A stretch of 64,000 bases of DNA from Amphiura filiformis. Its lineage: Eukaryota; Echinodermata; Ophiuroidea; Amphilepidida; Amphiuridae. The notes beneath the pieces were generated by a model. That model saw nothing but the letters and a program-made list of their open reading frames with translations, did not search any database and was not told where the DNA came from. Each line of letters opens with the position of its first letter. The first letter of the stretch is position 1. Made by a program: the position numbers and the translations under genes. Of this stretch, positions 739-54,940 are shown piece after piece. Where the stretch lies: contig NC_092641.1 of assembly GCF_039555335.1 (NCBI RefSeq), positions 34,125,548 through 34,189,547 of the forward strand. The letters run 5' to 3'.

Positions 739-3700
739 AGAGTGTGCTACAAGCTGTTGCACATGTAAGACAGGTGGATACAGACTGTATCAAAATGATT
801 GGTATCCATCAGTTTCCAGTGATATGGACATGACTGCCACATCAAAATACAACATAGGATCCACATAATTTGTTGATTAATGTCATAAACACTTATATAA
901 CAGTAAATTATGGTCATTTCAAGATGATACAATGTTGCATTTGGAAGAAGTAGGCTTTTCAATAACCATCAAAACTGATGGGTACCAATCATTATTGATA
1001 CAGCCTATATATAATTTTGTTTGTCTATTTATATCTGCTTGTTTGTTTTCAGCTAAAAAGGGATAAATTTTCTTGTTAGGAGTTCTACATCTCTGTCATT
1101 TGGGTCAAAAGAAGTTTAAAATCTGTTGATGTTTGTAACTTAATCAAGCAAAATGGGAAGGTGAAGAAAGAATTTTGGATTTTGAAGTTTTTCACATGAA
1201 GTCTTTCCTTTATGGTCCAGATATACTTGAAAAACTAATGGTAGTAAAAGAAGAATTTGCCTTTTAGGCAAAAGCTTTGGTGATATTCAAAGGACTTTTA
1301 CCAGCATAAACTGTAATATATTGCAGATTTCCTTTTACAAATTGAGCGTACTGCTACCATCCAGCGCATATTTTTTTGCACAAGGTCCTATGCACATGCT
1401 TGATGTTGTGAATTTATGCGATGGTTAATGCTTGAAAAGAACCTTGCAAAAGATTTTAGTTAAAGCAAAAATGTGCCAGAGCCAATTTACAGAGACCAAA
1501 CAAAAATGATTAGCAGTATTTGTCATTTTGTCATGAAAAGTATTGACTTCATGTTTATTAAGAAATTAATTACCACACCATGTTGGCTAATTAATCATTG
1601 TGCAGACCTCTACAGTGTTTGCTACTTCATTATTGGTTCCTCATGTTGATAATATACTAACATTGAGTGCTGTCATTATTATCCCACAGCAAAAGAGCAT
1701 ATCATTTGAATGTCTCAGCATGGGTGAGGGTGTGGAAACACGCCTGACTATGGCCATAGATACTGCAGTAGATAACGATGGATGGCTAGTGATAGAAAAC
1801 CTGCACCTTGCTTCAGAGAGCATCCTATCAGCACTCAGGCATCAACTGAATAGAGTGGGCAATACAGGAGGTGAGTGAAATTTATCTGCTGCAATTTACT
1901 GATGGTTCTATAGAAAGTGAAATGTTAATAAAAATGTGTCTCTTCACAATACTATGATAAGAAGTAGTTTGTATCCTGCAAAATTTCATGCAAATATTAT
2001 TTTCTCCATCAGGACCACTTGGTATGATGCCCATCGGCAAGAGCAGCCAATCACGGTTCTGTATCTGGTTGACCACCGAGCCTAGCGCTAAGATCCCAGA
2101 AACACTGCTACAATCCATGCGCATAATAGCGTGGGATAACATCACTAACCATCTGCTGCAGACAGAAGCGTCCTCTAGTGGTGGGCAAGATATAACGAAG
2201 CACTCACTTTTGGATGATGTCCTTAAAACGGGTGAGTAGCTACAGTGAACTACTAGTACTTGCAGATTTCCTTATACTTTTAGTGGATATCTACTGAAAA
2301 GTGTAGGGGTGGGGGGGAGAAGAACAATGGCAAACAGGGACACACACCCCCCCACCCACACACACAAGAAATCTGTACAACAGTCGATAGATGTCTACAA
2401 TTCCTCGTTTTTCTGGACGTAAAACACCACAAGAAAGCATTACAGCTAATAACCACAGTAATTTTTGTGTGTATACGGCGAGTCTACACTTAATAGTGAT
2501 AACTTAATTTTGTCCAGATTAAGGCAAACTAAATCAAATGTGTGTCCATCGTTAGATAGTAAAACCTTGGAGTATTTTTCCCACCCTCAGTTGTGGGTTG
2601 TTACACATAGATGGTGTGCGGGTATGTGGGGGACTCAGTAAATGGGATTTCTTATCTTCTTAGCCAATTTCAGGTCTGGGTAAAGGATTAGTGGTAAAGT
2701 TAGAAGTATGGCTAGTTGTAAACTGTTTAAAAGGGGATTTGAGGAGTAAATGAATCAACAGAGTATAGCATTGTTCATATGATCCACATTCACATCATAC
2801 AGTTCATATTTAACCTTTGACCTCCAAGTTTCACTCTTTTTTTTCTCAGAAAGACAAAATATCAAATTAATACAGGCTTACAGCATATTACAAAAGTTCC
2901 CAAAGTTAAGCTTATACCCACATGGTTAGTGTGATAGTTCGGACGTCCGATCATATTGAAATAAAGAAAAGTGAAGCATCACACATGCAAGGCTCAAATG
3001 ACAAAAATTAGAATATCCCATTCATCTGGGATGTTAAGTATAATTTTTTAATAAGTTGCCAGAAATCATGTGATGTGAACTCATTTGCACACTTGTCTAA
3101 CATAAATGAACATATCTTATTTCCTTAATTTCTCTTCATTTTCTGTTTCAGCAATATCATCAGCCCTAAATGCCATTTCCTTGGACACATGGCAAAAAGT
3201 TCATGAGCAGCCCATGGCTATTAAGGACATGGTGTTTGGAGCTTGCGTCATACATGGTCTGCTGGTTGCCAGGCAGATGTTTGGTTGCCGTGGTCTCACC
3301 CAGTCATACGCTTTAAGTGAGGTGCAACCTAATCACGCAGTGGGGGTCATCTTGAGGTCAAAAGGTGAAGGTCAGAAGGAGCTGAGTGTGGAAGATGTCT
3401 GTCAAGTTTTAGTAGAGGCGAGTTACAATATTTTCATTTACTCTTTTTCCCCTGAATAAGTCAAGTCTGTACATTTTGATACAATCTGATCCAGTCATAC
3501 CAAAGTCAGCAATAATGAAGTTGAGATGTGGGAAAACTAAGGAGTAAAAAGCAATTAAAAAACAAACTCAAGGAAATCAACATGTAACAAGCTTATAACT
3601 TTACAACCAAGTATGCCAGGAATTACTCATGGTTTTCTAAAGCATTTTCCAGCCTGATGTGGCAGTGACGTCAAAGCGTTGAGGCAGCTGTTTTGCGCGT

Positions 3701-6700
3701 GCATCTATGCGGTGTCTTTAAGCGTGTGCATGTGTACGCCAGCATTTTTGGCAAACACTAGCAATTTGTAGCTGCGGCCATGCAATGCGCACTGACGTCA
3801 CTGCTGCATCAGGGTGGAAAATGATTTACATCAATAAGATTGAGCAAGTTGGCAATGGTAATAACTCAGTTTTCAAAATTTTTGTTCAAATGTCATTTGA
3901 GGTCATTTTACAAATGTGTTTATTCTTCACAATTTTTTACATTTTACACACTAATTGACTGCTCTACTTGTTCAAGGGATGAGTGCATTAGTTAAGCATC
4001 TAATTCAGGTACATTCAGTGACACTTGTCTTACTCAAAGTATTAAACACAAATGCCAATCAACCTGTCACGATTGACATTTTGTAACATGTTGTTTGTTT
4101 CCTTCATTGTACTTACAGATTGTGTATGGTAACATCGTCACCAATGAATGGGACATGATGTACCTGTCCTCCATTGTCCGTTACGTGTTGACAACAACCA
4201 GCCGTCAATCAGGCAAGCTACGTCTTGGTGATACCATGCTAGGCACACCACCTGCAAATGTGGACCCGACGGAATATTCCAAATGGCTGGAAGAAAAGTG
4301 GGATGATAGTAATAGTGCTGTGAATGCTTTGTCACTGGATAAGGAGGTGGAGAAATTCACTAATAAAGCTAGGTGAGAAAGAAACAGCATATTTATTCAG
4401 AGCAGTGCATTCAGATTTGTAGATTTACATCAAAGTTTCTAAAGTAGAAATTCAGATCTTATGCCCACTAAATAGGGAGGGTATTTGATTGTGGTTTCTG
4501 GACCATTTTTCTGTGCAAAATCATTTTGGGAATAGACATGCATCACCAAAGTGTTTGGGAGCACAAGTTTGAATACTTTTCCAAATGTTTAGCAAAGTGC
4601 CTTTTAATGTAGCACTGTTCTCTCAAAAATATTAATGATTTTTTTTAAAAACTGTTTACCATAAAGTAGTAAAGAATTATTTTTGCAATAGTAAAGGTAA
4701 ACATTCATGCTTGTGTTCACATGATCAGCTATGACCTATTCAGCAGTGCTTGTAATGAACAATATGATTTTATTAGTGTGGTATCTGCTTTTAAAAAGTA
4801 TTAGAAACTGTTAGTAATCATTAGAGGGACAGACATGTTTTAACTCTCTCCCCGCGCATGTCGACTGCAGACGACAAGTTTTTTTTTCAATTCAAAATTT
4901 TCCGAATATTTAATGTTCATCACCATAATTGAAATTTGCGTGAAAAATACATTAAGATGTCAAACAAGCCTAGTATTAGTTTAGTGGTTCTTAAGATAGT
5001 TGTTGATATTTTGAGAAAATATCACAAAACTTGGGACTTATTATGTTGAAACATGGCTAGCATGCAGAACATTAATATTCTAACCTCTTGCAGACTTCTT
5101 TGTCCCCAAATCATGTGAAAACCATTCTATCATTCCTTACAGTGGCCAAGACTTCCTGAAGTATCTTGACAACCTATATGAGCTTCAGCATTCTGGACCT
5201 CTCAGCGACATCATTGAACAGAAAGATGCCCTCAACCTGACCAAAATCCAGACTGCAATGGATACAGTGTTGGAGCAATTACCTCCCATGTTAGACCTGG
5301 GTGAACTGCCATTGCATATTGTGAACGAGACTGAGAAGTACACATTCCCATACCATGCGCCCTCGTTGATGAGTTTGTTGAGTGTTGCAAGCATTGAAAT
5401 GCCACAGAGCATTGGATTTGTGCTTCTGCAGGTAAAGAACAATTCAAAATAATCTGTTAGGTTTTTAGGCACTAAATGCGAAACAGTGTATTACTATAAT
5501 ACCCTGGTCCCTTCACAGTTCTTTCAAATTATTTTGCAACTGCTGTTTATGAATTTGCAAATATCTTATCTTATCTATAAACAGATATATACTGGGGAAT
5601 GCAAGGTATTTTAATCACATTACCTCAGTGTTGGCAGAGCATTTGAAGCATATCCATCAAATCAAATCAGTCAGATCAGATCAGATCAAATTTATTTACA
5701 AATCACAACAGCAATAGGACTTCAAGGGACCATATTAATATTTTCCTATTTTTCCTATATTTTTGAACTTTGACTATTTTTTCCTATATTGTTACAAAAT
5801 ATTTTTTTTCTCCAAATTTAGGAAATTAAAAAAGTGTTGTTTTTTTCACTTGCACTGGTGAATTCTATGTAAAATTGGCAATTTCTATGCACTTTACGCA
5901 CAGTTGTCATATATCTTTAACAGGTCAGCAGCTAGATTGTACAGGTCTCTATTTTTTATAGACATCAAACCAGTCCAAAATAATGCACACATCATGCAAA
6001 AATTAAAGTATCTTTGAGACTTTTCCCTGTCACAGTTACTAGTCTCTGATACCCTCTTCTGCTATCCTATATTTGTCCTATATTTTTATTCAGACTATTC
6101 CTATTTTATTTCTATATTTTTTGCAAGGGAGGACTTGAAGCCCTGCAACAATAAATACCAAAAACAAGTGATATGGGAATGTGATAAGAAGGCCGGCAAA
6201 TTATGCCTTCGTTCTTATGTCAGTATAACTATTCAAAATCACTCTCTTGTAGTATGATTTTGAATAGTTAGATGGGCATAAGCACCAAGGTGTAAGCCCT
6301 GTCATATAAACCCTGTGATACCTCACCCCTTTATAACAGCCTTAATTACATAGTAAAAACAACAACATAAACAAATTGCACAACACATAAAACTTCACAA
6401 AAGACATATGTTTCATAGTATGAAATTAATACTTGCAATTTGACTGCTGGTTACAGAGTTTAAAGAATAACTTATCCTTGACTTATTTCACAGGAATGTC
6501 ACTGGTTCAACTCCCTGCTGTGTCATGTGCGTCAATCCTTACATGAGTTAGAGGAAACTCTGCTGGGAGGAGAGCATGCCATCACACCTGCGTTACAAGA
6601 GACAGTGAAGGCTTTGCAGCAAGATGCTGTACCTAAATCATGGCTACATCCTAACCAACAACCAACAGGTCATACTGTCATGTCATGGATTGAAGGTAAG

Positions 6701-9700
6701 AAAACATTCAATTAATAAGAAAGGATGAACAGTTTTACCAACCCAAAGTGTTACAATTAAACATGACGCCAAATAAACACAAATCTCGACCCGGCATGGG
6801 GATCGAACCCACGACCTTCCAATCTCTAGACGGACGCCTTATCCATTTAAGCTACTTTACATTCAATTAATATCTAAATGAAAAATAAAGAAAATCTCAT
6901 TTTTCTTTAATTTCTCCCATTATCCCTTAAATACAAAGTGACTTTAGCATTTCATTTCACAAAAACTGTTGGTTCTTGATTTATCACACATATAAAGTCC
7001 TATTGTTAAACCAAACTTAATGGCAATTGTAAGCATTTGTGAAATGGGGCCCAGCGACCTGTTCCCACAAAATGAGTGTAAAATTGCAAGTTGGTGGTTG
7101 TGATTGAGACCATGCAATTATCGAGTGCTGTTCTTTGTTTGAAGACATCTGTATAGTCAGTGGTATGTCCTTTTGTGAATAGGAACATAATATGCTATAA
7201 TCTGTACTCTGTCCCCATTCACAAAGGACATACCACTGCCAATACAGGTGTCTTCAAGCAAAGAACATCAGTTCAACAGTTGGAATAATTTCAATCCTTA
7301 GTTATCTTTCAATTTCAATTCATTCTTTCAATAGGTGTGATCAAGTGTCATGATCAGATGGAGGTTTGGATGAAAGAAGGCAAAGTCCCTAGCTCATCAC
7401 AAGACCCAACAAGACCACCACCTCCACGAGGACATCTGCTATCTGTATGGATGGGTGGACTTGCCAATCCTAAATCAGTCATCACTGCATTAAGACAAGA
7501 GAAGGCAGTACTTGCTAACTGTCTCCTGTCTGAGGTAAGAAAATAAAAAAATTTCTCCCATTTACAAAGTGATAAGACAGTCACTATATGATAATATGAG
7601 ATACAGTAGGGGGATAGGCACAAGCAAAATTATTTAAATTTCCATGGGAGGATGAAATTAACCAATTTTTGGCAAAATTTAGCTAATCTCCCCCTAAACA
7701 CCCCATGAAATACAGTTTTTCTCCAAATGCACCCACACCTCTGGGAAATAAAATTATGGTCCTGCCACTGATAAAAAAAATACAGATACTAATACACAAT
7801 AATGAAAAAGATAACATATTCACAAGGTCAAAAAAGTCCCCACCCCCAATGGGGTTACCTGTAGCTGTCTGGACTTGTTGACATTGCTAACTGCACTATC
7901 AAAAAAGCACTGTATGAACCTTGCAAGTTGCAATCCCCTGTGTGTTCATGGGAGGATGAAGGGCTTGAACCATACCCTTCAGAAACAGGTTTGATCCTCT
8001 TTTTGCTTTTGGGTTTGAGACTGCAGTTGCAAGCTTGTGAAATCTGTTCAATCAATTTCAGGTTGGTATTGAGTGTGATGTGTCAACTTCCATGACTACC
8101 GACACAATGGAGATTACTCATGAGGGCGGTATGTACCTGAGAGGCGTTTGGTTGGAAGGTGCATCATGGGATTTGAAGAACAGCTGCATGACTGATGCTG
8201 GGTAAGGACTATAAGATTTGGAAAAAATGAAATAATATTTAGTTTTATAACATGCTTGAAATTACAGCCAGTATTTTATCTTCAAACCATTTTGAGGTGA
8301 AAAGATTGTTGGTTGTGCTCTTCTGCAAGAGTTACTTTGAGTTTCCAAAGATAGAGTCTTTCCATTAGAAAAATGGGATCTGTGACCCATTTCACTAAAA
8401 CATTTGATCAATTTTACGATTGATTTGATAGGGGTTTATGTGTGGTAAATCAATTGTAAAATATCATTCATAAGGCTTGGTGAATAATATATGTAATATG
8501 TTTATCTTATTTTAGCTGTTCCCTAGCTGCCATGCCAAGTATCTACATCCGACCAGTCATCAAGTCAGATACAGACAATACTGATGAAACAACCCCTGAT
8601 GATCCTCAGCCAGATGATGAGGGCGCTTCACAAGATGGAGAGCCATCACCGCCAAAACAGCGCACTGAGATCATAGAATGCCCAGTATTTATGAATAGAT
8701 CGCGTCAGGTGTGTGTATTTAAACTGAAGTTGAAATGTCCAGAGCCTGCTGAGAAATGGGTCATGGCTGGCGTGGCGTTGATACTTGATCCGGGTAAGAT
8801 TTTTATGTCAATTTTTGTCAAGCTTAAAATATTATAAATGAAACATGTCTTAACAAACAAAGTTTTAATTAGAAGAAAACATTTTCAAGTCAAATTCAGT
8901 AGTAGGGTTAGGTTTTCATCATAATTTACATATTGGGCTATTCTATCAAATTATGTTGGTCTGATATACCCTACATGGAATACATGACCTTAATCTTCCA
9001 GAGGGTGTAGAATGGAATTGCCAATTCAGATAACCCTGTTTGAAATTCACATTCCCTGTGTGAAAGATTAAGGTCATGTCTTGCCTTGGGGTGTACTGGA
9101 TTTCAACTGGAATAGCACAGTGACTGTATCCCTTTAATATCTGGTCATAAATATTCATGATGTTATTGTTGTGTCTGAAAAAAAATCTATAACACATCAA
9201 ATATTAAAACTCTTTGAAATGTAGAATATAAAGTTCGTTTTTCAAAACCAAGAAAATACTGTTTTTTCACTGACCTGACAGTTTCGAGTGTCTTGGGCGA
9301 CACTCTTCTTCAGAGTGATCTATGTCCACACACCTCCGGCGGATTTCGCCTGTAGAGGAGCACTACTCATGGAGATGATTGGGTCATAGATGTGACTTAG
9401 AAAATGGGCCCCCTCGTCTCTGTTCATGACTTGCGGGGATTTCTTCCTTATCCAGATGGATTCCATAATTCTTCTTGATCTCGCGTCGTATTTGAAATGT
9501 ACCATAATTCATTCAACTTATCTTTGATTGTTTCTCTTGTACTTACTCCTAACAATACTTCTTTCATTTTCATCTCTTACTCATCAACTAATACCTTCCC
9601 TAGTTTCACAGTTCTCTGTACCCATACCAAAACCACCAAAGGCCGTTGAAGAGACTCCTAGTACATCTTTCAAGGGCACAGTGATGTCTGTACAAATTCA

Positions 9701-12700
9701 GAGCTCATTACTGAAATTGAAAAACAACTTATTTGGTAAATTGGATGTGAAGTAGCCCTATGACCGCAGTCTACCTTCCCTACATGCTTTCCCATTTGTA
9801 AGCTAAAAGTCTTGATTTGAACAAGAACAGAACAATCCCAACCATAATCGCAGCCCTAACCATAATCCCAAGCTAATCCATTAATGCTACCCCTAATCCC
9901 TAACCCTAACCCTCAGTGTAATCCTAACCCTAAAACATATTCTTAAACACTAGAAAAAGTGCCTGCAATCTTATTGGTTCTTATGACACGACATAACACT
10001 GTTCAGCGCATTCGAATTAACATGATATGCGTACACACTATATGAACTAATCGGAGGCGCATAAAAACAATGTCACTGATCGATTTAAGCCTGAGGTAAT
10101 TCCTTGTAAAATGATTTAATTTGATTAAAATGTGGTATACTTATGATTAATAGTTTTATTTGAATTGAAGTGTTTAAGAATGAGAATAAAGATTTTGTTT
10201 TTAGCTGCTGCTGTGCACCTATCATCACCATTATTTTGGGAATAAACAACTCGGCTTTGCCTTGTTGTTCTACTTAAAATAATGATGTCACCCGTGTTAT
10301 ATGAGACTATAGATACACAGCAGCGGCTAAAAACAATACATTTATTCTCTAAATCCTAACCCTAATTCTAAGATGTTGATGTTGCACCAGTTATTCTTAA
10401 GTTTTGCCAGTTTTAATTATAAATGCCTTTCCCTTGCTAATCCAGAACCAAGATTCTGCTGCCTTATGTGATCAACAGCTCAGGTCGCCATTAACAAAAA
10501 GTGTAACATAGTTCACTTCTTTTTCATACTGTCCATATAGCTCCATATGGTCCTTTTAACCTTTTCTGTGTTGCTTGTTCTTGTTAGGTAGTGTTTATGA
10601 TGGTCATTTTCACTCTTTTTTTCTTTGATTCACTTGTTTAGTGTAGCTATAATATGTGATGCAACTAAAACAGAATTCATTGAGTTGGTGACAATTATGC
10701 TGAAATACTGTCAAAGTTGGAATAATTCCATGTTCCTGAAATGTGATTTATTTTCACATGTATTTCTGAAAACAATGAAGTACAAAAGAATTAGAATTTA
10801 GATACTTTTATGTGTAATTCAAAATCAGTTGTTTTCAGCACAAGAGTTCAGTTTGGCTCTAATTTGCATCACATAAAATTTGTTATTATTGTTATTATCA
10901 AATATTAATTATTAATTTTTTAGATATATTTGCATACATTTGCCGCATGCTCCCAAGTTTACATGCTGTCATCCATTCCATTTATGAATACACAAGTTAC
11001 TAAATTATTCCTCAAAACTTTGAAATACTTTGTTAATGTTATTTTGTAAAATGTTGGCACCACCTTCTTCAAGCTCGTAGCCAGGAGCTTTTTGGGGTGG
11101 GTTTCATTGAAAAAGTTGACTTTGGCATGTCCGTTCTTGTCTATAGACGGCATGACCTTCATAAATGTATACACAACATTGATTGGTAGCTGAGGAAGGG
11201 GATGGAATCATTTGCCATATAGCAAAGCAATTGATAATGGAAAAGTATGTGAAATTGGATTTGCCGCATGGCCCTACGCGATCACCTTTTCCATTTTGAA
11301 ATCAAAATCAATTTGGCCACAAAGCGGCAAAAAATTGGACCGAAAATGCAATAAAAAAGAAATCTTGCATAGCGCATAGCTTCCCCCCCTCAAAAAAAAA
11401 TTGCATTGCACATAGCTTTCTGACGAAATGTTTTTGAGACAAACACTTTTGTTTTGGCGTAAGAGATCAATTAGAAGTCATGAATTTACCTGTTTGTAAT
11501 AGTCAACACTTCCTTGCATGCATCAGTTAATGTCATGTTTACAAGCACTGCATAATTGACTCAAATCTAATGGTATCTTTTCCTTACATTGTCATGTTTA
11601 CAAGCACTGCATAATTGACTCAAATCTAATGGTATCCTTTCCTTACATTGGCATGTGATTCAAACAAGACAGATAGCCATAATAATATAAACCATGCAAA
11701 TGTTCCAAATAATTTCAGCAGAGTTTTTAGTAAATAGTGTGTTAAAATCAAATTTGAATAACTGTAACAATATCATGTCACTAATTCTATTAATATTCCT
11801 GTTTGTTATAGGAGCACCAGAAGACTTCAAGAAGTCTGTGAAATTTGTCAAACCAGAAACAGCAGCAGGAAAAGATGATTCTAGTGAGCGCACCGGATCC
11901 ACCGTGCCATCCAAAATGGGCACCCCATTGGTGCAACATGATGGGCGAGACTCGGTGGACAATGTACGCTTATCACGTGCGTCCAAACACTCGGCAAAAT
12001 CAATGCGCAGTCAGAGATCTCGACAGTCTGTGAGATCTGCGCAGGTGACTGCCAATCACCAGATATTGGAAGAAGCTGAGACTGAAGAGGGAAGTGCCCA
12101 AGAAGAAGAGCATGAGGAACCAATCAGAAGTGGAGAAAAACATGAAGATGAAGAGGAGGAGGAACTGGAAGCTTTGTTGACTGCAAGGTCAGAGACATTA
12201 GAAAGACAGCGCCATCTAACATCAACATTTGATTATCGCACCGAAAACATGTTGACTGAGTCGCAGGGAATGGCTTACAACATAAATCAAAATGCAGATG
12301 ACGATGTCCAGGACGATGATGAGAGCTCATATGCGGCGTCATCACAGGCTTCATCAAGAATCAGCGGATTGTCTGCAGACAAGAAGGATAGCTCAAGACC
12401 TGTCAGTGCCCGTTCTAGCATTGCTAGTAGACAAGGTGATGATGATGAGAAAGAGATGAAGACATCTAGACCTGGAAGCTCCAGACCAGTGAGTGCAAAG
12501 CCTAAGAGTGCTGCATCAAGCAATAGAGACTCTCCACAAGAAGGTAAATTAGTGATGTGATATTGCATGCAGTTACAGGTTTTTACAAAAAAGAATGTTT
12601 GCTAGGATATGATTGAGACTAATATCATCTTTTTTACATGGAAAAACAGTGGCATGATGGGAATTATATAAATAAACATAATTTTTCACAAGGTTCGCCA

Positions 12701-14884
12701 TCGCAAATAATGAAGGAGACTTGCGAGGAATATATTTGCGGGGAGTAGATAAGTCAAGTGACCGCTTATGGGTTCGAATTTCAACCAGCCTAATCTTGAA
12801 GTTCCTGTGGCCGAGTGGTTAAGGCACAGGTCTCGTAAACCTGAGGTCCTGGGTTCGATTCCCAGATGGGATCACTTTTTCTACTTGTCTCCTTTATTAT
12901 TTGCGACGGTGAACCTGGTGAAAAATTATGTTTATTTATCATATTTTTTCTTCAAAAATTTCACATGGAGGATTTGAAAATGGGCAAAGTAATAGGGCAG
13001 AAAGGTTGAAATTACAGGCTGTTACTATGTTGATTTTCTGATTTTAATGAATGACTGCCTTTACTTATGCCCTTTGGCTCAATCATGTTTGCACCAAACC
13101 AGCACACTCTAATACACACATCTACTCAAAGAAGACCTCCACAAGTGCGAACAACTGATGATACATGGAAATCGCGGAATGATAAAGTTATGGATGAATT
13201 TTTATGATAGATATTTTTCTTTTTGAATTTTCAGGCAGGTTAGTGCGGCCCATCTACAGCAATGACAGTGATGATAACAATAAGTCAACTGATGAAAGAC
13301 CAGCTGCAAAAGATGATGAAGATCGCAAGTCAGTGGCTAGTCAGAGATCTGCAAAGTCACAAGTGTCCTTTGCCAAAGATACAAAAATGGATGCAGAAGA
13401 TGAAGAGAAGAAAAAGGAGGAGGAGGAAGCTAAGAAGAAGGAAGAAGCAGCCAAGAAAAGACAGGAGGATTTCCAACAAAATGCTGCTAGAATGAGATTC
13501 AAAAGGTGAAGTTTTTTTTTTAATTTGTCAAGGCTAATCTAGCATTAAACAACAGAAATCTATTTAGGTAATGCAGACAGCTGGTGCAAAGAATGCCCTC
13601 CCGCTAGAAGCTCTGCAAATCCTGGTTTGAAACTGCATGTGCTGGTAGGGCATTCCATTCTGTGGGAGACCAAGTTAAATGTTGGGATTTTTACAGGATG
13701 GTTAAGTTTGTGTGATCTGATGAGAAGATTTAGGCAGTTTAGGCTTGAACAGACTGAAAAGTTTGTTTTGGTATGTTTGGTTGATATTGTATCACTCTAT
13801 TTTTAAAGACAAAAATTATGATGTTGTACTTAAGTCACACCCACCCACAAAATGGATTAGTCTTACTGACAGTGATTGCAAACTAGGTCTGAAAATTAGC
13901 ATAAATGTAATCAAGTGGTGAATGATATTTGTCAGTCAGATGGCCTGGTGCACCCAGTCGGGGAAATTGAGACTTATTCAAATTTATTGTGAATTTTTAA
14001 ATTGCAACTGAATTGTATATTGTTACACCTGTTTCCATTTATAGCACAAACAAATCAATAACAATCTGGTCAAATCAATTATGATCAACTCAAATCAATT
14101 TGTTTTTGTATGAAAATATATGGTTCGCCATAGAACATTTGATTAATTTCTGCAATTCTTACCTCTTCACAGAGTACCTGGTGGAACTACAATAACATCA
14201 GCTCCAAGGAAAGAGGCCCCTCCCAAGGACGACTCCCCTCCGAGTCGTACTGCATCGGCACGTTCCGACACCTCCAAGACTTCACAGCGAACAGCAAGCG
14301 CTACATCTCAGAAATCCATTGATGACAAAACTGGCGATCCTTACAAGCAAGACCCTAAAAACATGTCTGCATCAAGGACTAGTTTAAGAGATGATAGTAA
14401 GACAATACCAGCCAAAGTTGCTGGATCACGGGAGAGTGTTAAGTCTAAACAGAGTGTACAGGGTTCTAAAGCAAGTTTTATATCGGCCCAGTCGCTGTAC
14501 GGTGCACCAAAAACATCCGATAAACGGAGTATCACCAAGTCGCAAGCATCTCTTCGTTCCAATCGTAGCAATAAAGAGCGCACAGGATCGGCCGAGTCCA
14601 GAAAGTCGGTCGCTGCTGCAAACCAGGATGCAGAGGGTAAAAGTGGTTCATCGAGAACGCCATCGGCTAAGTCGGTATCAAAAGCGCCCACTGTTGGTGA
14701 TGTGAAGGAAGCAACTGATGCAGAGAATGCTACCGCTGATAGTGGTAGCAGACCTGCAAGCAGTAAGTCTCAAAAAGATGGAAACAATCAGAAAGATGAT
14801 GATGTTGAAGTGAAAGATGAGGACAAAGTGGAAACAGGGGATGATGCGGAGAGTAGGCACAGCAAGGAACAACCATTGTATTAA
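437..14884 (+). CDS. DNHD1: Dynein heavy chain (DNHD1-like), 3' part of the gene with a long C-terminal tail
   Basis: The window enters this gene at an AAA6 exon. Exons read as 437-~700, 1690-1870, 2013-2231, 3152-3417, 4119-4372, 5143-5431, 6494-6695, 7335-7534, 8062-8201, 8516-8793, 9604-9735, 11812-12543, 13235-13505 and 14173-14884. From 1690 onward every junction I checked is phase-compatible. Dynein hallmarks in order are LTDFHQLILLRIMRPDRL (AAA6 entry), GWLVIENLHLASESI (AAA6 Walker-B-like strand), the lid helix with LLVARQMFG, IVYGNIVTNEWD, then ECHWFNSLLCHVRQSL, VWMGGLANPKSVITALRQE and GVWLEGASWD of the C-terminal domain. Dynein heavy chains are microtubule motors; DNHD1 is linked to sperm flagella in mammals. 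The divergence from ordinary axonemal chains and the LLPP motif after AAA6 favour DNHD1, but another divergent axonemal chain is possible. The exons from 9604 to the stop encode 615 low-complexity residues not seen in typical dyneins. The family call is firm; the symbol and the tail joining are inferences. Confidence 0.8.
1690..1870 (+). CDS. Dynein exon: AAA6 core
   Basis: Acceptor ATCCCACAG ends at 1689 and donor GGAG|GTGAGT follows 1870; the exon leaves phase 1. The 60 codons contain ECLSMGEG and GWLVIENLHLA, matching the dynein pattern of an LGQG-like turn followed by a Walker-B-like strand (usually W-V-V-L-Q-N-C-H-L). The Q-N-C-H of canonical chains is replaced by E-N-L-H. Confidence 0.88.
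2013..2231 (+). CDS. Dynein exon: AAA6, RFxIWLTTEP segment
   Basis: Phase 1 in and out (acceptor CCATCAG, donor ACGG|GTGAGT). The residues SRFCIWLTTEP followed by IPETLLQSMRI correspond to the conserved dynein segment F-R-L-F-L-T-S-x-P, then the I-P-x-x-x-L-Q-x-S stretch that follows AAA6. Confidence 0.9.
3152..3417 (+). CDS. Dynein exon: AAA6 lid, probable GC donor
   Basis: Acceptor TGTTTCAG; enters in phase 1. The frame includes MVFGACVIHGLLVARQMFG, equivalent to the conserved lid helix with F-H-A-x-x-x-x-R-x-x-F-G. The next exon starts in phase 0 at IVYGN. The best phase-0 donor is GAG|GCGAGT after 3417, a GC donor, which restores the family pattern E-I-x-Y-G. The alternative TTA|GTAGAG after 3411 is also phase 0 but a weaker donor. 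Confidence 0.82.
4119..4372 (+). CDS. Dynein exon: IVYGNIVTNEWD segment
   Basis: Acceptor TACTTACAG, donor CTAG|GTGAGA; phase 0 in and 2 out. It begins IVYGNIVTNEWDMMYLSSIV, the counterpart of the very conserved dynein I-x-Y-G-G-x-V-T-D-D-W-D. Gly-Gly has become Gly-Asn, and the second Asp has become Glu. Confidence 0.9.
5143..5431 (+). CDS. Dynein exon: C-terminal linker
   Basis: Acceptor CCTTACAG, donor CAG|GTAAAG; phase 2 in and 0 out. It encodes a helical stretch, SGQDFLKYLDNLYELQ through IPEMPQ-like SIEMPQSIGFVLLQ. This region is poorly conserved across dyneins and links AAA6 to the C-terminal domain. Confidence 0.85.
5640..5720 (-). repeat. Retroelement 3' tail with (TGATC)n-like microsatellite
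   Basis: On the minus strand TTTGTAAATAAATTTGATC leads into a run of degenerate pentamers (GATCT, GATTT). A polyadenylation-like AAATAAA followed by short tandem repeats is typical of CR1-like LINE 3' ends, as also seen at 40.2 and 56.7 kb in this window. Confidence 0.45.
6494..6695 (+). CDS. Dynein exon: FNxLLxxVRxSL segment
   Basis: Acceptor TTTCACAG, donor GAAG|GTAAGA; phase 0 in and 1 out. ECHWFNSLLCHVRQSLHEL and the downstream VPKSWLHP with TVMSWIEG match the dynein run R-F-N-x-L-L-x-x-I-R-x-S-L ... V-P-x-x-W ... L-x-x-W. Confidence 0.92.
6785..6857 (-). repeat. tRNA-like sequence in a dynein intron (SINE or pseudogene)
   Basis: On the minus strand an A-box-like GTAGCTTAAATGG is followed about 40 bases later by GGTTCGATCCC, a perfect B-box core. 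The anticodon arm pairs poorly and no reliable anticodon can be assigned, so this is a tRNA-derived repeat rather than a working tRNA. Confidence 0.5.
7125..7275. repeat. Inverted repeat in a dynein intron
   Basis: The segment containing CAGTGGTATGTCCTTT near 7160 recurs as its complement AAAGGACATACCACTG near 7225. The flanks (GAAGACATCTGTAT against ATACAGGTGTCTTC) also pair. The arms are about 55 bases with a short loop. Confidence 0.65.
7335..7534 (+). CDS. Dynein exon: start of C-terminal domain
   Basis: Acceptor CAATAG, donor GAG|GTAAGA; phase 1 in and 0 out. GHLLSVWMGGLANPKSVITALRQ aligns with the family pattern of a W-x-x-G-F-x-x-P-x-x-F-x-T-x-x-x-Q stretch. A proline-rich insertion (DPTRPPPPRG) precedes it. 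Confidence 0.9.
8062..8201 (+). CDS. Dynein exon: C-terminal domain, GVWLEGASWD
   Basis: Acceptor AATTTCAG, donor GCTGG|GTAAGG; phase 0 in and 2 out. GGMYLRGVWLEGASWDLKN matches the hallmark G-x-x-x-x-G-L-x-L-E-G-A-x-W-D of dynein C-terminal domains. Confidence 0.92.
8516..8793 (+). CDS. Dynein exon: end of the canonical C-terminal domain
   Basis: Acceptor TATTTTAG, donor CCGG|GTAAGA; phase 2 in and 1 out. MPSIYIRPVI and IIECPVFMNRSRQ correspond to the final dynein strands (M-P-x-I-x-x-x-P ... Y-x-C-P-V-Y-x-x-x-x-R). WVMAGVALILDP is the usual last strand, where most dyneins stop. An acidic and Pro-rich insertion of about 40 residues lies between the two strands. Confidence 0.92.
8935..9117. 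mobile_element. Foldback MITE, family A copy 1
   Basis: It begins GGGCTATTCTATC and ends in the complementary CAACTGGAATAGC. Inside, ATGACCTTAATCTTCCA pairs with a diverged AAGATTAAGGTCATG. Relatives lie at 16.4, 26.2, 58.8 and 60.2 kb. It sits in a dynein intron. Confidence 0.75.
9235..9510 (-). mobile_element. Penelope-like retroelement, 3' fragment
   Basis: On the minus strand the frame RRIMESIWIRKKSPQVMNRDEG is the characteristic end of the GIY-YIG endonuclease region of Penelope-like elements (pattern E-A-x-x-I-R-K ... M-N-R-D-E-G). It stops at 9320 and is followed by the usual SEEEC-coding tail. Only the C-terminus is present, so the copy is 5'-truncated. It lies antisense in a dynein intron. 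Confidence 0.6.
9604..9735 (+). CDS. Probable linker exon between the dynein domain and its tail
   Basis: Acceptor CTTCCCTAG, donor TTTG|GTAAAT; phase 1 in and 1 out, fitting both neighbours. It encodes SQFSVPIPKPPKAVEETP and then SLLKLKNNLF. If the donor is not used, the frame stops at 9753-9755, which would give a short isoform ending soon after the motor domain. It is less certain than the flanking exons because the residues are not diagnostic. Confidence 0.55.
9853..9935. repeat. Interstitial telomere-like repeat
   Basis: A perfect core CCCTAACCCTAACCCT at 9898-9913 lies within about 80 bases of degenerate CCTAA words. Further single units occur at 10351-10372 and 60369-60380. Confidence 0.7.
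10182..10350. mobile_element. Foldback repeat, family B copy 1
   Basis: GAGAATAAAGATTTTGTTTTTAG at the left pairs with its complement at 10328-10350 across an inner inverted repeat. A second copy with the same left flank (TTATTTGAATTGAAGTG) is at 54769-54940. Confidence 0.65.
11531..11648. repeat. Tandem duplication, 59-bp unit
   Basis: TGTCATGTTTACAAGCACTG and the following 40 bases occur twice back to back, with one substitution near the end. It lies in the intron just before the first tail exon. Confidence 0.85.
11812..12543 (+). CDS. Disordered tail exon 1 of the dynein gene
   Basis: Acceptor TTGTTATAG, donor GAAG|GTAAAT; phase 1 in and 1 out. The 244 residues have no recognisable fold. 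A basic Ser/Arg stretch (MRSQRSRQSVRSAQV) is followed by an acidic one with HEDEEEEELEALL, then repeated SRPVSA-type words. The frame is open over 867 bases, which is exceptional here. It could belong to a separate gene, but no promoter or clear start codon precedes it: the nearest in-frame ATGs lie before the acceptor. Confidence 0.75.
12801..12873 (+). tRNA. tRNA-Thr(CGT)-like gene or tRNA-derived repeat
   Basis: The 73 bases fold as a cloverleaf: D arm GCC/GGC, anticodon stem CAGGT/ACCTG (827-831, 839-843), loop CTCGTAA with anticodon CGT, T stem CTGGG/CCCAG around TTCGATT. A- and B-boxes are good and a TTTTT Pol III terminator follows at 12876. The acceptor stem is weak: only five of seven positions can pair (two as G:U), and the discriminator is C. 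It lies in an intron of the dynein tail. It may be a decayed gene or part of a SINE. Confidence 0.55.
13235..13505 (+). CDS. Disordered tail exon 2: Lys/Glu-rich helix
   Basis: Acceptor AATTTTCAG, donor AAAAG|GTGAAG; phase 1 in and 2 out. After RLVRPIYSNDSDD comes a Ser-rich segment and then a charged run (EDEEKKKEEEEAKKKEEAAK) likely to form a single alpha helix or coiled coil. Confidence 0.75.
14173..14884 (+). CDS. Disordered tail last exon with stop codon
   Basis: Acceptor CTCTTCACAG; enters in phase 2 and runs to TAA at 14882-14884. The 237 residues are Ser/Lys/Arg-rich with repeated SxRS and SKxS words. ERTGS occurs here as well as in the first tail exon, which supports the two exons belonging to one protein. 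The last 40 residues turn acidic. Confidence 0.78.
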
Positions 14885-15233: not shown

Positions 15234-15998
15234 AATAAATAGTTATGTTGAACATTATTTAATACTAAATTGAATTGTGATTCAAATAGGACCTCTTATT
15301 TGATGTGTTACGATAATATGATTTTTTGTTTGTTTGTTTAGTTTCTTTTGTTTTTATAAAACAAAACTATTTTTCTGTTTGTGCAATTAAATGTGTATTA
15401 TATCAAATATGAATATGTCCACTGTAAATATGAAATATATTTATGAGGCTTAAAAATAACATGTATTTTGATTCAATTCAAAGAAATATTAATTTTGAAC
15501 CGTCCAAATTGTTGTAAAATTTGATGCCACTTAAGAGTGAAATTTAGAAAATATTTTGTAAAGTTATTAAGTAATCAAGTTGAAATTGTCTTCTGTGCAA
15601 GAGCTTATTTTGTGAGAATCAATTCTAACTCTTGCAAAGTAGTTTTGCAGGCATCGTTTGATTTTCCAAAATTACATTCCAAGTAAGGGCTCATATTGAA
15701 ATACCCTACCACGTTTTCACACAGAAAGAAGGCAGGATTCCCCTCGCTAAGCTAAGCGCGCCTCAGGAAAGCTCGGTCATAAAACGGATGGATTATATGC
15801 ATCAGTGATACACTCTGCCCAGGATTTTAACAAAAGAAGGCTAGCACAGGAAAGCTGCAGGATAGCGCACACCTTCCTGTGTAAGGGAATTTCAATATGA
15901 GCCCTAATGTTATATGTAAAATGTAAAGGCATTATCCGTGAATCTGGCAAAGGATTTGTTTAGGAGCTTTAAAATTAAAGTGAATAAAAGTCAATAAA
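15234..15998 (+). terminator. Candidate poly(A) signals
   Basis: AATAAA at 15234, 15983 and 15993, all downstream of the stop codon at 14884. Which one is used cannot be told from the sequence. Confidence 0.45.
15687..15904. mobile_element. Harbinger-like MITE in the 3'UTR
   Basis: The terminal inverted repeats begin GGGCTCATATTGAAAT at both ends and extend imperfectly for about 40 bases. The flanks show a TAA duplication (15684-15686 and 15905-15907). The 3-bp TAA target and GGGC terminus are typical of PIF/Harbinger MITEs. At 218 bp it cannot encode a transposase. Confidence 0.8.
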
Positions 15999-16375
15999 GT
16001 TGTATTTTAAGAAAAAATTGCAAACTGCAGTGTTGGTAAATGTAAAGCTCCGTTAAATTTTGTGTAGCTATGAGTGTCTGTATGGACAAACTCTTTTTTT
16101 AAGTCATGATCGGTCTTATCACCTGCAAGGTACTTTGATACTTTCGTTTTTCCTTTAACTGTTTTTGTATTGTGCCTTGAATATCTTGTTTTGATGGTAT
16201 GCATATGCGTTATAAATCCATTAAGTTAATTTTAAGTGATTTTCAATGATATTATTTTTAGATTTTTTGATGCAGCGAATCACTGATGCCTTTAAAAATT
16301 TGTGCAAAATCAACTTTGATTCACACAAATTCTGTCATGATTGAGATCTCAACAAAATTCTATCCTGGTATTCAT

Positions 16376-16530
16376 GGTAATGGACTATTCCAGTTGAAAT
16401 CCATACACCCCAATGGAAGACATGACCTTAATCTTTTACACAAGGAGTGTGAATTTCAATAGTGATTACACTGAATTGGTGGGAGATTAAGGTCATGTCT
16501 TCCATAGAGGGTGTATGGATTTCAAAATGG
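16376..16530. mobile_element. Foldback MITE, family A copy 2
   Basis: GGACTATTCCAGTTGAAATC at the left and its complement ending GGAATAACC at the right, with GACATGACCTTAATC and GATTAAGGTCATGTC pairing inside. Confidence 0.8.
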
Positions 16531-18090
16531 AATAACCCGTTGCACTTACCAGAAAACTTAACTAGTAAAATAGATATACCGGATATGATATAATATAGAT
16601 AAGGTTAATAGTTAATATCAGATATGAAATATGTGATATTGCCAATGAAGCAATTATTATACCCTTAATAGTACCCATGTAAGTGGGAAGAAGAAATTGT
16701 GGCATGTACCCTTAACAACCACATCCGTCCATATGAAATCCGTCCATATGAAATCCGTCCATATGAAATCTGTCCAGTACAGTATTGTGCTTACAATATG
16801 TTTATTCTAAGTGTATAACAATGTAATTTAGAAATTATTATTATCTTATGAAATTCGTCCAGCCGTGTGGTGCTTACAGTGTTTATGCAAAACCACCAAA
16901 TCATTACACTTGGTGAATCAAGGTAAAATCACAGATACTTTTATTAGGGTTTGGAGCTCCATGCTAAATACTCCATTTTATGGGAAATTTTTTAGTGGCT
17001 TGAAAAGATCATGTTCCCTAGGAACACTGCGTAAGTTTGTTTGGCATTAATTGGTGAAAATTATTTGTTTTTTGTTACTGCGTGCATCAATGAAGTCCCA
17101 ACTCATGCTCACGTGAGACTTACATAAGCATGCGCCAGCCACACATTACACAACATACAACCTAGCCTAGTGCAACGCCTAACTGTGTGCACGCCATTCT
17201 ATATATACACAGTGTCAAGGGTCTCAAATTTTTCTCACCAATTATAAGCCAAGCATAGGGATGACAGTTTTCAGGCAATTTTAAGCCCATTTTTAGGCTT
17301 TACAGCCCAAATTTGCATGTTTTTTCAGGCTTTTCCTGCAAGCATCCCTGTAAACAAACTTTAGCTACAGTATATTAAATTGTGAAGACCCCGGAGATGG
17401 TTTTCAACTCAACTTTTGTGAAGGCCATTGCTTGAGTGAGATGGGGAATCAATTTACATGGGGAATCAAAATTTGCATCCAAGATCAAAGATTTTGGACT
17501 TGTATGTTGCTTCATGGGTGTGAGCAACCAACCAATGTCGGACACAATTATGACAATAGGGATTTGTTATGGACAGTGTTTTTCAAATAGGCCATATATT
17601 TATAGTATGATCAGTTCGTAATCGGTGGGCCTTATAACATCACAGATATATATTTTATTTTGTTTTGTGACATCTTGCCAGAAGCATCGCAAGCTATTAA
17701 TTGAAGTCCTATTCTTGGTCTACACTCTTAACATCAGTTTACTTTTCGGCGTAGTGGTAAAAGCTTAACAATTCCCGCCGATTACAAGCTGATCAAAGTA
17801 TAGAGAACCCTATTATTGAAGATGGTCCCCAAGTGTACTATAGGTATGTAAGATTTTAATGACTTGAGATGTACATAAAATAATTCATTCCGTCCATCCT
17901 GTAACATAGCATGTTGTAAAAATGCGCCAAGTGTGTGAAATTATGAATTAAAACTACTTGACCTGAAAGTTGGTAAGTCTTGTATTGATTTTCATTCAAG
18001 TTTTTGGTTGGTTTACATTGTTGTCAAATTTTTCTCTTTATCACAATATTTGTGCATTCACCCGTGATGCCAATGTCTCGACTTTTGATA
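16530..18090. other. Intergenic, nothing recognised
   Basis: Apart from the 15-bp tandem repeat, I see only short open frames without family resemblance or splice context. Confidence 0.5.
16723..16775. repeat. Short tandem repeat, 15-bp unit
   Basis: Three and a half copies of ATCCGTCCATATGAA. A diverged half-copy appears again near 16849. Confidence 0.85.
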
Positions 18091-25840: not shown

Positions 25841-26171
25841 CTATATAAATAATAGAATGGATTTTAACTATATCACAAAAGTTTCAATTTCACAGAAAAC
25901 TAGTAGGGGATATGGTCAAGTTTTGTGTCTTGAATAGTAATACAAACTTCATCATTTTACTTCCATGAAAAACATTTATGAAATATGAATCTGTGGTATA
26001 CACAGATAAACAATACAATTTGAATCCCTGGTGCACAATAATTAATAAATCTTATCATAAAGCTCCATTTTACTTTCTCAGAAAACTGGTCTGCCAGACA
26101 AGATTGAGTTTCGTTTCTCATCTAACAAAGGCACGATTTCACTGACACCGGAGTCAAAGCACCCAGAGGCA

Positions 26172-26392
26172 TTGGGCTATTCCAGTAGAAATCCATACAA
26201 CCCCTATAGATGACATGACCTTAAATACACACAACCCCTATAGAAGATGTGACCTTAATCTTCCACAAAGGGAGTGTGAAATTCAAATGGGTAACCTGAA
26301 TGGGCAACTCCATTTGAATTCTTCACTCCCTGTGTGGGAGATTGAGTTCATGTCTTCCACAGTGGGGGTATGGATTTCAAATTAAATAGCCC
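26172..26392. mobile_element. Foldback MITE, family A copy 3
   Basis: GGGCTATTCCAGTAGAAATC at the left; AAATTAAATAGCCC at the right. The left arm contains an internal duplication (ACCCCTATAGA occurs twice with a ...GACCTTAA repeat), so this copy is longer than the others. Confidence 0.75.
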
Positions 26393-35400: not shown

Positions 35401-38346
35401 AGGCTATTTGAGTCCTTGGGTTTTGAAAATGTATGGGTCATCATCATTTTCACATACAAGCCCATACTCAAATTGTAAAATTTCAAAGTTACACTGGTCC
35501 ACACTACTTCCCAACATGTATCAAATGAAATAGTCATTTGGTACACACGGGATTCGAACCTATTGACCCCGGGCACTCAACTTTGGAAGTGACGGTATGT
35601 GCCTGTCAATAGGCCCCTCTTTTGAAGTAGACTATACCCGATGACCCCCTGTTTAAAAAAGTCATACCCGATGACCCCCCCTTTTTTAGTTGCGGCTACC
35701 CAATGACCCCCTTTTTTTTGTTGCGGCTACCCAATGAGCCCCCTTTTTTCTAGATTTTCTAGAATAGCATCATCAAAATGCCAAAAAATAATGCCGAAAC
35801 TTTCCAATTTTCTCAAAATTATGCAGAAATTTTCAAAATTTTGCTCCATTTTTTCAAAATTTTCTACCCGATGACCATTTTTTTGAAATCTTATACTCAA
35901 TGACCCCCTTTTTTCAAAATATTATACCCAATGACCCCTTTTTTATTTTGTTTGTACCCAATGACCCCTTTTTGAAATAACGCTTTGTACCCGATAGGCA
36001 CTTACTTCGCGACGCCGGTAGGCACATACCCGTCACTTCTAAAGTTGAGTGCCCCCCGGGCTATTGACATGCAAAGCAGATCACCGACCTGTAGTCACAC
36101 AGGGTTTTCGCTGGCCCAGCCAGCGATTCTGTGGGTATGACTATAATTTACCCTGTGGGAATACCAGTATTTATTGTAAATATGTGACCATCCACAACGA
36201 ACCCCAGTGACGAACCAAGTAAAGTCGCCAGTGCTTATTCAGAGATATGGACCAATGAGCACTATAGAAATCAACAGAAAACAAAAGAATTTCAAGAGCA
36301 AACTTGATGAGTACCTTATTTCCCACGCAGCTACATTTGTACAACGTACATGTATGACAAGTGATATCATTTTAAAGCTTGTTTTCTGGAGATTTCAATT
36401 GTTCAATAATACTCAAAATTGCGACTTTACACTGGCAGTGGCGGCACCAGGAATTTTTTTGGGGGGCATGCGGGGCAAAGTGAATTTCGACAGGGGGTCG
36501 ACAAATTTTGCAAAATTGCGGAAATTTATTTAAATTTGGGGTTTTTTGCCACAAAACTGGGGGAAAGAAAAATATTTTTGGGGCGCCACCACTTTACACT
36601 GGGTTTGCTGTGGATGGTCATATACATTATATGCTTACCTCTAACAATACTGCTCATGGCATCTATTTTATCTCTCAGGTGGTTGCTGCTCAATTTGAAC
36701 ACTGAAAAAAAAAAAACCAAAAAAATACAAATGAAAAATGTTTAATTTAATTCATTTAAATTTCATCTCTGTCGCAAATTGAGCTTAATACATGATATAA
36801 AATTTTGAGGGTCAAAGATTTTGACCAAATACAAGTGCTCAAAAAGATTCCAATAAGGGGCTGTGCAATAATTATGAGCCCAGGTGGAAGGTAAAATTGT
36901 GGAGGGGCAAGAAATTTTACCCCCTCTTGCCACGGGGGTCTACATTAGGCGACTAAGCTTTGATAGTTCGCATGATAATGCAATCACATCGCATGGGATA
37001 CCAGCGCTTGCAGATGTTTTGTGAATTAAGGTTTTTTTGTGTTTGGTTCGGTTAGGGTTATGGGGAGTTATGGGGACCTTTTTTATACAAGACAGTACAA
37101 TGCATAACTAAAACTTACAGTCTTCTTTGTCTCTCTTTGGCTGCTCTTCAGTCACTAGAACTGTTGGCATCCCCTGCCGACTTCCACTCTTCACTTCCTG
37201 TGAGGGCACTTTTGTCGAACTATCTGGTATGATTCTGCTTCCACCACCATTATTGTTATTATACTGAGTTGTCCTGCTTCTGTTACTCGTGTCCGGTTTA
37301 ACATCCCGCCTTCCGACGATAGAGTTTCTTTTCTTATCACCACCTGACTTGCCATTACCAGAATTGTTTCTAGCTTTGTCGGCATCAATTGGATACAACC
37401 TCACTTCAAAACCAGAAACGTTCTTAACTTCCTGTCCATCTGGTTTGACAGCGGAACTATCTACAACAGTGGTGTTCGTAGGAGGGGTAGGGACAGTCGC
37501 TTGCGGAGCAGACTGCTTTCGTCTACCACCAAAAATGTCCCTTGGTCTTGAAAATATACTTTTACCAAATAAATACTTGGCATAACTTTGTTTCAAGGCA
37601 AGATATTTAGGATCGGCTTCCTTCTGGACGGATGATGAATTTAAGTTTGTTAAGTTTTTATCGCTCCTACTTTTGTGTATGCCGCCCTCGTTGTTGATCA
37701 ATGTTGGGCTAGAACATCTCGTTGTCGGGGTACTATGCACTGTCAAACCTGTGTCATTCCTTTTATTCTCATAAATCTCCTTCTTCTTTGCTTTTCTAAG
37801 AAGTTTTTGCAACTTACTGTTAAAGGCATGCTTATTCAGTTCATTGTAACTTTTAGATTTCTCATTCAAATCATCTCCTGGAACCGGACCGCCAATTACG
37901 GTATACCTCCTATGTTTGGAGCTTGGACTTTGCGTGCTTGGACTTTGAGTGCTTGGACTTTGAATGTTTGGTGGTGTAGCTGGTTGACTCACACTACGAA
38001 ATCTAGGTGAACTTGGTCCACCAGTCATTAAATCAAATATACTCCCGGATCGTGAACGGGCTGGGCTCACGGACGGACTGCTGCAAACCGGACTCTGAGC
38101 CGGAGAAAACGGAACACTTTGTCTTTGCTGATGCTGTTTCCACAAGCACCCTTTATGTGCCTGCATATCGGAATGCGTGGGCATTTCATTAAATCCTGTT
38201 CTTGTGAAACTGCTATTGGCAATCTCTTGACGGCAGATGCCACATGGTACAAGGTCTTCTCCGGTGTCCAGATGGCAGATGTCACATCTACTGCTGTCCA
38301 GGTTGACGTTGACAAAGTCATCCTCTACCTCTACTGAATCCAACAT
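29294..38346 (-). CDS. Unrecognised protein: Cys/His cluster, Ser/Pro-rich middle, C-terminal coiled coil
   Basis: Coding exons are 38346-37119, 36701-36639 and 29424-29294, with phases 1 and 1 matching at both introns; the product is 473 residues. Near residue 20 is CDICHLDTGEDLVPCGIC, followed by a His at about 57, another near 64 and a Cys near 67, so a zinc-binding cross-brace or treble-clef fold is possible. Residues 75-135 are Ser/Pro-rich with three tandem QSPSTQSPS words. Later come a basic LRKAKKKE stretch and SIFSRPRDIFGGRRK. The last 64 residues are a heptad-like helix containing DLVNLLEERDELKHEMRMRH. The L-V-x-L-L-x-E-R-D-E-L run recalls the SCHIP1 C-terminus, but the N-terminus does not fit SCHIP1. 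I infer a cytosolic scaffold or adaptor and claim no function. Confidence 0.85.
29425..32530. other. Intron, nothing recognised
   Basis: AT-rich intron sequence. No repeat with clear ends and no further exon that fits the phase. Confidence 0.5.
32540..33262. repeat. Complex repeat with four internal ~110-bp units and TGACCT words
   Basis: It starts with a perfect hairpin, TTCGACGCAAGGCGTCGAA, at 32557. GCCTCCACC at the left faces GGTGGAGGC at the right. Between them a unit containing TTGGCTCTAAATGTTG and CACCAAGTTTCA is repeated four times at spacings of 106-120. About 12 TGACCT hexamers occur. It ends with a GGACGGACGGAC run near 33200. Confidence 0.75.
33263..35540. other. Intron, nothing certain
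   Basis: AT-rich. Short open frames only. A weak repeat-like character at 33590-34330 has no clear ends. Confidence 0.4.
35541..36120 (-). repeat. tRNA-Ala-like SINE or pseudogene split by an insertion
   Basis: On the minus strand 36120-36061 gives GGTCGGTGATCTGCTTTGCAT, an Ala(TGC)-like anticodon arm. After the insertion, 35567-35541 continues GTCAATAGGTTCGAATCCC with a perfect B-box. The two halves become adjacent when the 493-bp element and one copy of its duplication are taken out. Confidence 0.65.
35568..36060. mobile_element. hAT-like non-autonomous element, 8-bp duplication
   Basis: Identical CTATTGAC octamers flank it at 35560-35567 and 36061-36068. The ends are inverted: CCCGGGCACTCAACTTT at the left against AAAGTTGAGTGCCCCCCGGG at the right, continuing to GAAGTGACGG. 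The 493-bp interior is a run of degenerate ACCCGATGACCCCC-T-tract units. An 8-bp target fits hAT (or P) elements. There is no coding capacity. Confidence 0.85.
36436..36590. mobile_element. 155-bp insertion flanked by a 12-bp direct repeat
   Basis: ACTTTACACTGG occurs exactly at 36424-36435 and 36591-36602. The insert begins CAGTGGCGGCACC and ends GGGGCGCCACC, so its tips are roughly inverted, and it contains G-runs. Similar G-rich, GGCG-tipped pieces occur at 38.8 and 48.4 kb. Confidence 0.7.
36639..36701 (-). CDS. Second coding exon, 63 bp
   Basis: Minus-strand acceptor T-tract then CAG before 36701; donor AGAG|GTAAGC after 36639. Phase 1 in and out. It encodes LFKLSSNHLRDKIDAMSSIV, the start of the coiled coil. 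Confidence 0.85.
37119..38346 (-). CDS. First coding exon: Cys/His cluster and Ser/Pro-rich region
   Basis: The exon begins at 38350 after a minus-strand acceptor (ATCATTACAG), with the ATG four bases inside. It ends GAAGACT|GTAAGT at 37119 in phase 1. It is the longest clean coding frame in the window (409 codons). Opposite-strand frames over the same bases are shadows. Confidence 0.9.
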
Positions 38347-38559
38347 GATCCTGTAATGATGACAATGTTTTTAACATAAAATTAACAAATTTATTGTTTG
38401 CAAATTCATGAGACATCGTATTCGCCCAGTAAAGATTAAAAATAGTATTTATTTTTAGGCATAAATTGTCTGTATTATAATTATTTTAGACAGGCAGGAG
38501 GGCAGATACCAACGTTTTCTTTTTACCTCCCCTTCGGATGCTACTGGAAGAAACCCCCC

Positions 38560-54651: not shown

Positions 54652-54768
54652 TTAATGTACACTAAAAGGGCAATCCTCTGCAATTCCGTGCAAAATGTAG
54701 GATTTCATTTGATTAAAATTTGTAATACAAGTTTGTGTTATTTTTATTTGAATTGAAGTGTTAAAGAA

Positions 54769-54940
54769 TGAGAATAAAGGTATTGTTTTTAGCCGCTGTG
54801 GTGCATCTATCGTCTCAAACATGGGCGACATCATTATTTTTGGCATAAAACAACGAGGTGAAAAATAATGATGATTATATGAGACGTCATGATAGATGCA
54901 CTCCCGCGGCTTTAGCCCGGGCTTTAGCCTAGCGAGGGCT
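54769..54940. mobile_element. Foldback repeat, family B copy 2
   Basis: GAGAATAAAGGTATTGTTTT and TTAGCCGCTG, with an inverted partner near 54885-54915 (GATAGATGCAC, GCGGCTTTAG). The left flank is shared with 10182-10350. Confidence 0.65.

Follow-up and report, generated by a model that had tools for sequence, protein, structure and literature searches.

A divergent, putatively DNHD1-like dynein heavy chain of Amphiura filiformis with a probable 615-residue disordered C-terminal tail

Introduction

Does the dynein heavy chain encoded in this stretch of Amphiura filiformis DNA (the window, analysed over its full 64,000 nucleotides) end, as dyneins usually do, at the last strand of its C-terminal domain, or does it run on into a long disordered extension? 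The usual end, which does not strictly define a dynein, is not what is found here, with 615 extra residues following the strand. From the sequence, motor and extension are probably parts of one gene, a divergent DNHD1-like dynein in which a 615-residue disordered tail follows on from the C-terminal domain. Dynein heavy chains bind their partners mainly through the N-terminal tail, and a long tail beside the C-terminal domain, if it proves true, would provide an attachment point that differs from the N-terminal one.

Gene model and reading frame

The intron structure marks the DNA as eukaryotic, and the first 8.8 kb of its forward strand hold the 3' end of the dynein gene. The model comprises 13 exons on the forward strand, from 1690 to 14884, forming a single open frame of 1291 residues (676 of motor and 615 of tail) in which the phases agree throughout and the sole stop is the terminal one. 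It had originally been predicted that the dynein frame runs on from exon 8516 through exons 9604, 11812, 13235 and 14173, and this is borne out, the joins having phases 1, 1, 1 and 2 and the frame adding 615 residues after GVALILDP before it closes.

1690-1870, 2013-2231, 3152-3417 and 4119-4372, + strand: motor exons with Dynein_heavy (D6) and AAA_lid_11, placed by Pfam and phases
5143-5431, 6494-6695, 7335-7534, 8062-8201 and 8516-8793, + strand: motor exons with Dynein_C and GVALILDP at the end, placed by Pfam PF18199, PDB matches and phases
9604-9735, + strand: first tail exon, 132 nt, phase 1-1, tail residues 1-44
11812-12543, + strand: second tail exon, phase 1-1, residues 45-288, with SR-rich, acidic and DDD blocks
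13235-13505, + strand: third tail exon, residues 289-378, with a Lys/Glu-rich stretch judged by eye to be helix-like
14173-14884, + strand: last tail exon, residues 379-615, with the stop (TAA 14882-14884)
15234-15239, + strand: AATAAA 350 nt past the stop, which could serve the long transcript as its poly(A) signal
438-692, + strand: probable additional motor exon outside the 13-exon model, with an open frame and an acceptor

Other exon boundaries were considered and rejected. A start at 5094 for the first exon of the C-terminal domain breaks the phase, and acceptor 5143 suits both phases; the C-terminal motor queries (Pfam, PDB, relatives, identity and word count) began at 5094 and so included 15 wrong residues, which fall neither in the Pfam match (query 24-383) nor in any of the best PDB stretches (starting at query residue 18 or later). 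Donor 8708 (score 9.5) would cost the motor its conserved last strands, and an end at 13506 for exon 13235 breaks the frame, 13505 being correct.

Exon 438-692 presumably encodes the RPDR stretch upstream of AAA6; no micro-exon linking it in phase to 1690 was found above the thresholds used. The intron after 3417 is likely of the GC-AG type (GAG/GCGAGT, 3417-3418), and its GC donor gives the phase fit to exon 4119. Another motor intron holds a long inverted repeat (7126-7270, with 48-nt arms that are 90% complementary), distinct from the MITE-like family mentioned below.

Motor domains and dynein class

AAA1-AAA4, the stalk and the microtubule-binding domain lie upstream of the window, and the motor is known here from its 3' part. 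In this part, Pfam identifies the D6 P-loop region of Dynein_heavy (PF03028; E 2.4e-10, 40.8 bits against a cut-off of 30.5), the AAA lid AAA_lid_11 (PF18198; E 1.6e-10, 41.8 bits against a cut-off of 31) and Dynein_C (PF18199; E 5.3e-45, profile positions 8-309 of 309). The last match reaches the final profile position, and the C-terminal domain is thus complete up to GVALIL. The D6 P-loop region, the AAA lid and the full Dynein_C are shared with the solved axonemal and cytoplasmic dyneins (DNAH9, DNAH17 and the Chlamydomonas beta chain), as is the last Dynein_C strand, common to this motor and the solved chains:

KWVMAGVALILD

Unlike the solved dyneins, this motor carries within Dynein_C an acidic insert some 35 residues long. 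The insert is Pro-rich and falls late in the domain (8565-8669, SDTDN...KQRTE); DNAH9 lacks it, and Chlamydomonas beta nearly lacks it.

The best solved relative is DNAH9 (E 6e-18 for a 430-residue query against the PDB). Identities, computed for DNAH9 and Chlamydomonas beta only, are 33.1% for the motor against DNAH9 (79/239) and 37.5% against the Chlamydomonas outer-arm beta chain (84/224), as compared with 50.4% between those two (114/226). Both values fall below the mutual identity of the pair, which places the motor outside their class. Together with the modest scores obtained with the other chains, this suggests that the motor belongs to none of the matched solved dynein classes.

The motor is provisionally taken here to be DNHD1-like, a reasonable name for it. 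An identity with DNHD1 itself is plausible: that gene is a vertebrate orphan, and lying outside the solved classes, as this motor does, would fit it. DNHD1 has been described in one report as an orphan dynein-related gene (PMC8754002), and another describes mutations in it that disturb the sperm flagellum (PMC9916431). For the 385-residue C-terminal part, relatives were looked for in collections made up of sequences other than animal genomes, where 0 of 1 pattern matches (viral_contigs) and 0 of 20 (genome_contigs) were confirmed.

Where dynein chains end

The expectation that dyneins normally end just past the last strand agrees with the solved structures. In all 60 of the 60 matched PDB sequences, which are partly redundant and include a few engineered constructs, the chain stops at most 88 residues past the matched stretch, and in the 10 of these 60 whose last strand falls in the displayed match, only 1-12 residues lie beyond it. 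Solved chains end near this strand, and the 615-residue extension is therefore unusual among solved dyneins, to which the comparison refers. Among the listed titles and abstract openings of papers on DNHD1 and on dynein C-terminal extensions, none describes a dynein with such a C-terminal tail; an earlier description may exist elsewhere.

Composition and coding signal of the tail

The tail is rich in Ser (16.3%), Lys (10.1%), Ala (9.8%), Glu (8.9%), Asp (8.6%) and Arg (7.2%), with 106 basic and 108 acidic residues and neither Cys nor Trp. Its hydropathy is low and the charge-hydropathy line classes it as disordered; its segregation of charge was matched by 2 of 1000 shuffles, so that the original description of a charged, patterned and disordered-type sequence stands. 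The 44 residues of exon 9604 are an exception and fall on the ordered side of the line. The tail matched no Pfam family and no PDB sequence at E values up to 1.

The three large tail exons are clearly coding. When first-order sequences were simulated 2000 times, fitted exon by exon, the tail frame remained free of stops by chance in 0/2000 for exon 11812, 12/2000 for exon 13235, 0/2000 for exon 14173 and 205/2000 for exon 9604; a stop-free stretch of at least 240 residues appeared in 0 of 40 first-order random 64-kb sequences. A codon score trained on the nine motor exons (687 codons) placed exons 11812, 13235 and 14173 above 3000 of 3000 random stretches, which were drawn from 15300-36000, a region assumed to be noncoding. 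Exon 9604 has the lowest score among the tail exons, standing above 2899 of the 3000.

The join between motor and tail

The evidence is least favourable to a fusion at exon 9604. Its acceptor scores 2.6 (93rd percentile of AG) and is the weakest acceptor in the 13-exon model, and its donor at 9735 (ttgGTAAAT) scores 5.0 (93.7th percentile of GT) and is the weakest GT donor. The two joins that connect motor and tail are the weakest ones, and this is counted against the fusion. Exons 9604 and 11812 are both of phase 1-1, so each could be skipped or added with the frame kept. Downstream are two elements at which a shorter product might end:

9753-9755, + strand: in-frame TAG, possible end of a short isoform, 17 nt past donor 9735; closes the open frame 9528-9755, 50 residues after GVALILDP
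10185-10190, + strand: AATAAA, possible end of a short isoform, within an interspersed repeat (10098-10226)

A second AATAAA downstream of exon 9604 begins at 10241. The original prediction that no poly(A) signal separates motor and tail is not supported in that form, given these two hexamers, both of which follow an in-frame stop.

These features allow the dynein to end normally at 9753-9755, in a composite last exon, with the tail at most a minor alternative product. The weak donor and the stop so close behind it speak for such an end, as does the pair of AATAAA hexamers, two or more occurring in 17.9% of the 500-nt stretches of 15300-63000, and the codon score of 9604-9752 is slightly above that of 9604-9735 (equalled or exceeded by 42 of 3000 random stretches, as opposed to 101). 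A single AATAAA is common, however, with at least one in 48.7% of the same stretches, and that at 10185 is borne by the repeat, which has an approximately 80% identical copy at 54682-54814 with AATAAA in both. The three large tail exons, moreover, are strongly coding and in phase, and no alternative first coding exon that fits their phase passed the thresholds; a normal end at the TAG is considered unlikely. The fused gene remains the preferred reading, to which the weak donor and the nearby in-frame stop may add a second, nearly tailless isoform.

The first tail intron contains one of several palindromic, MITE-like interspersed repeats in the window (8940-9125, with others at 16371-16545, 26167-26392 and 58827-59002).

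Tail exons as a possible separate gene

Alternatively, exons 11812-14884 could form a small gene of their own, which would encode a disordered protein, begin with an ATG at 11916 or an unseen noncoding first exon, and match the dynein in phase by chance. At a single join, such a match has a chance of one in three, and a gap of 2 kb lies upstream of 11812. The original prediction found no clear start codon here, which does not hold, since an in-frame ATG in strong context is present:

11916-11918, + strand: ATG in the tail frame, flanked by A at -3 and G at +4, the best candidate start of a separate gene

Unspliced in-frame ATGs also occur at 11694, 11700 and 11775. The coding signal, however, precedes ATG 11916. 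The 104 nt upstream of it resemble coding sequence when read in the tail frame (a score reached by 13 of 3000 random stretches), with another frame slightly higher (0.274 as against 0.221), whereas the 121 nt before acceptor 11812 (11691-11811) are not coding-like (785 of 3000 as high). Furthermore, 9740-11790 contained no candidate for a first coding exon that would join 11812 in phase with a GT donor score of at least 5.0. In nine equally long control stretches the counts of such candidates were 1, 2, 0, 0, 2, 5, 2, 1 and 0, and as six of the nine contain at least one, their absence here weighs only mildly. No CpG-rich window was found in 9701-11700, where observed/expected values range from 0.00 to 0.64. 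On balance a separate gene appears quite improbable, and the exons are treated below as the tail of the dynein.

A tRNA-Thr (CGT)-like sequence, either a gene or a tRNA-derived repeat, occupies 12801-12875, in the intron that follows exon 11812.

Recurring words in the tail

Two words, SRPVSA and ERTGS, had been noted as recurring in separate exons. This holds for ERTGS, which is found in two exons, but not for SRPVSA, both copies of which (tail residues 239 and 268) are in exon 11812. Both are members of a broader set, R-[TP]-x-S-[AST], of which the tail has nine examples; exon 11812 holds four of them and exon 14173 the other five. The pattern was picked after the tail had been viewed; in 5000 shuffles its mean was 0.26 and its maximum 3. 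Neither the 385-residue C-terminal part of the motor nor the other stop-free stretches of the window, at 19,824 residues, contained it. A second pattern, [RK]-x-S-V, likewise chosen post hoc, occurs seven times, where 5000 shuffles averaged 0.84 and never gave more than 5, and its distribution over exons 11812, 13235 and 14173 ties these three exons together.

Tests set beforehand gave a similar picture of repetition, with 7 repeated 5-mers in the tail against 0.71 expected and 26 repeated 4-mers against 8.0, values that 0 of 1000 shuffles reached in either case. In a blind scan of residue triples, four exceeded the top of 200 shuffles (z 5.69), three of them Glu-rich and one S-x-x-S-x-R; the triples of the R-words reached z 4.7-4.8, under that top value. 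RxxS/T sites showed no significant enrichment in the tail (14 as compared with 9.7; at least 14 in 80 of 1000 shuffles), and S/T-x-x-D/E sites are depleted (13 as compared with 24.2; 999 of 1000 shuffles as high or higher).

Arginine in the words is encoded by CGC, CGT, CGA and AGA, and serine by TCC, TCG, AGT and AGC. This mixture of codon families indicates that the words recur as protein and not as recent copies of DNA. An origin of the tail as copied DNA was rejected on this ground and because the tail exons have no other match in the window.

Proposed role of the tail

Composition and repeated words together point to a tentative model, in which the tail would be a flexible polyampholyte tether emerging from the final strand of the C-terminal domain. 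Its R-[TP]-x-S-[AST] and [RK]-x-S-V words would serve as repeated weak docking sites or as sites for basophilic kinases, whose preference they would suit. The words could then attach the motor, in a phosphorylation-dependent manner, to a partner that is either axonemal or located where assembly takes place. Anchoring or clustering by the tail is putative, and the tether mechanism, taken alone, is regarded as possible but doubtful.

The same tail could be real and fused and still be a fast-drifting, low-complexity extension with no specific function, an explanation that competes with the mechanism only and that is likewise possible without being probable. Low hydropathy and the lack of a Pfam or PDB match speak for such drift; on the other hand, the words have been retained at the protein level despite differing codons, and the observed charge segregation is rare among shuffles. 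The fullest form of the proposal combines an orphan dynein, a multivalent Arg/Ser-word tail acting as a phosphorylation-controlled tether, and a weak donor that competes with an intronic stop and repeat-borne poly(A) signal to switch between tailed and nearly tailless chains; as a whole this would be a long shot.

Rest of the window

Two further features lie well beyond the dynein. On the reverse strand, 37111-38370 is an open frame of 420 residues that is probably the next gene, in opposite orientation; its match to zf-RING_15 (the KIAA1045 RING finger) is weak and below the cut-off (E 0.00098). At 59020-60048, a 60-bp tandem repeat is present in 17 copies with 95% matches, and is open in several frames.
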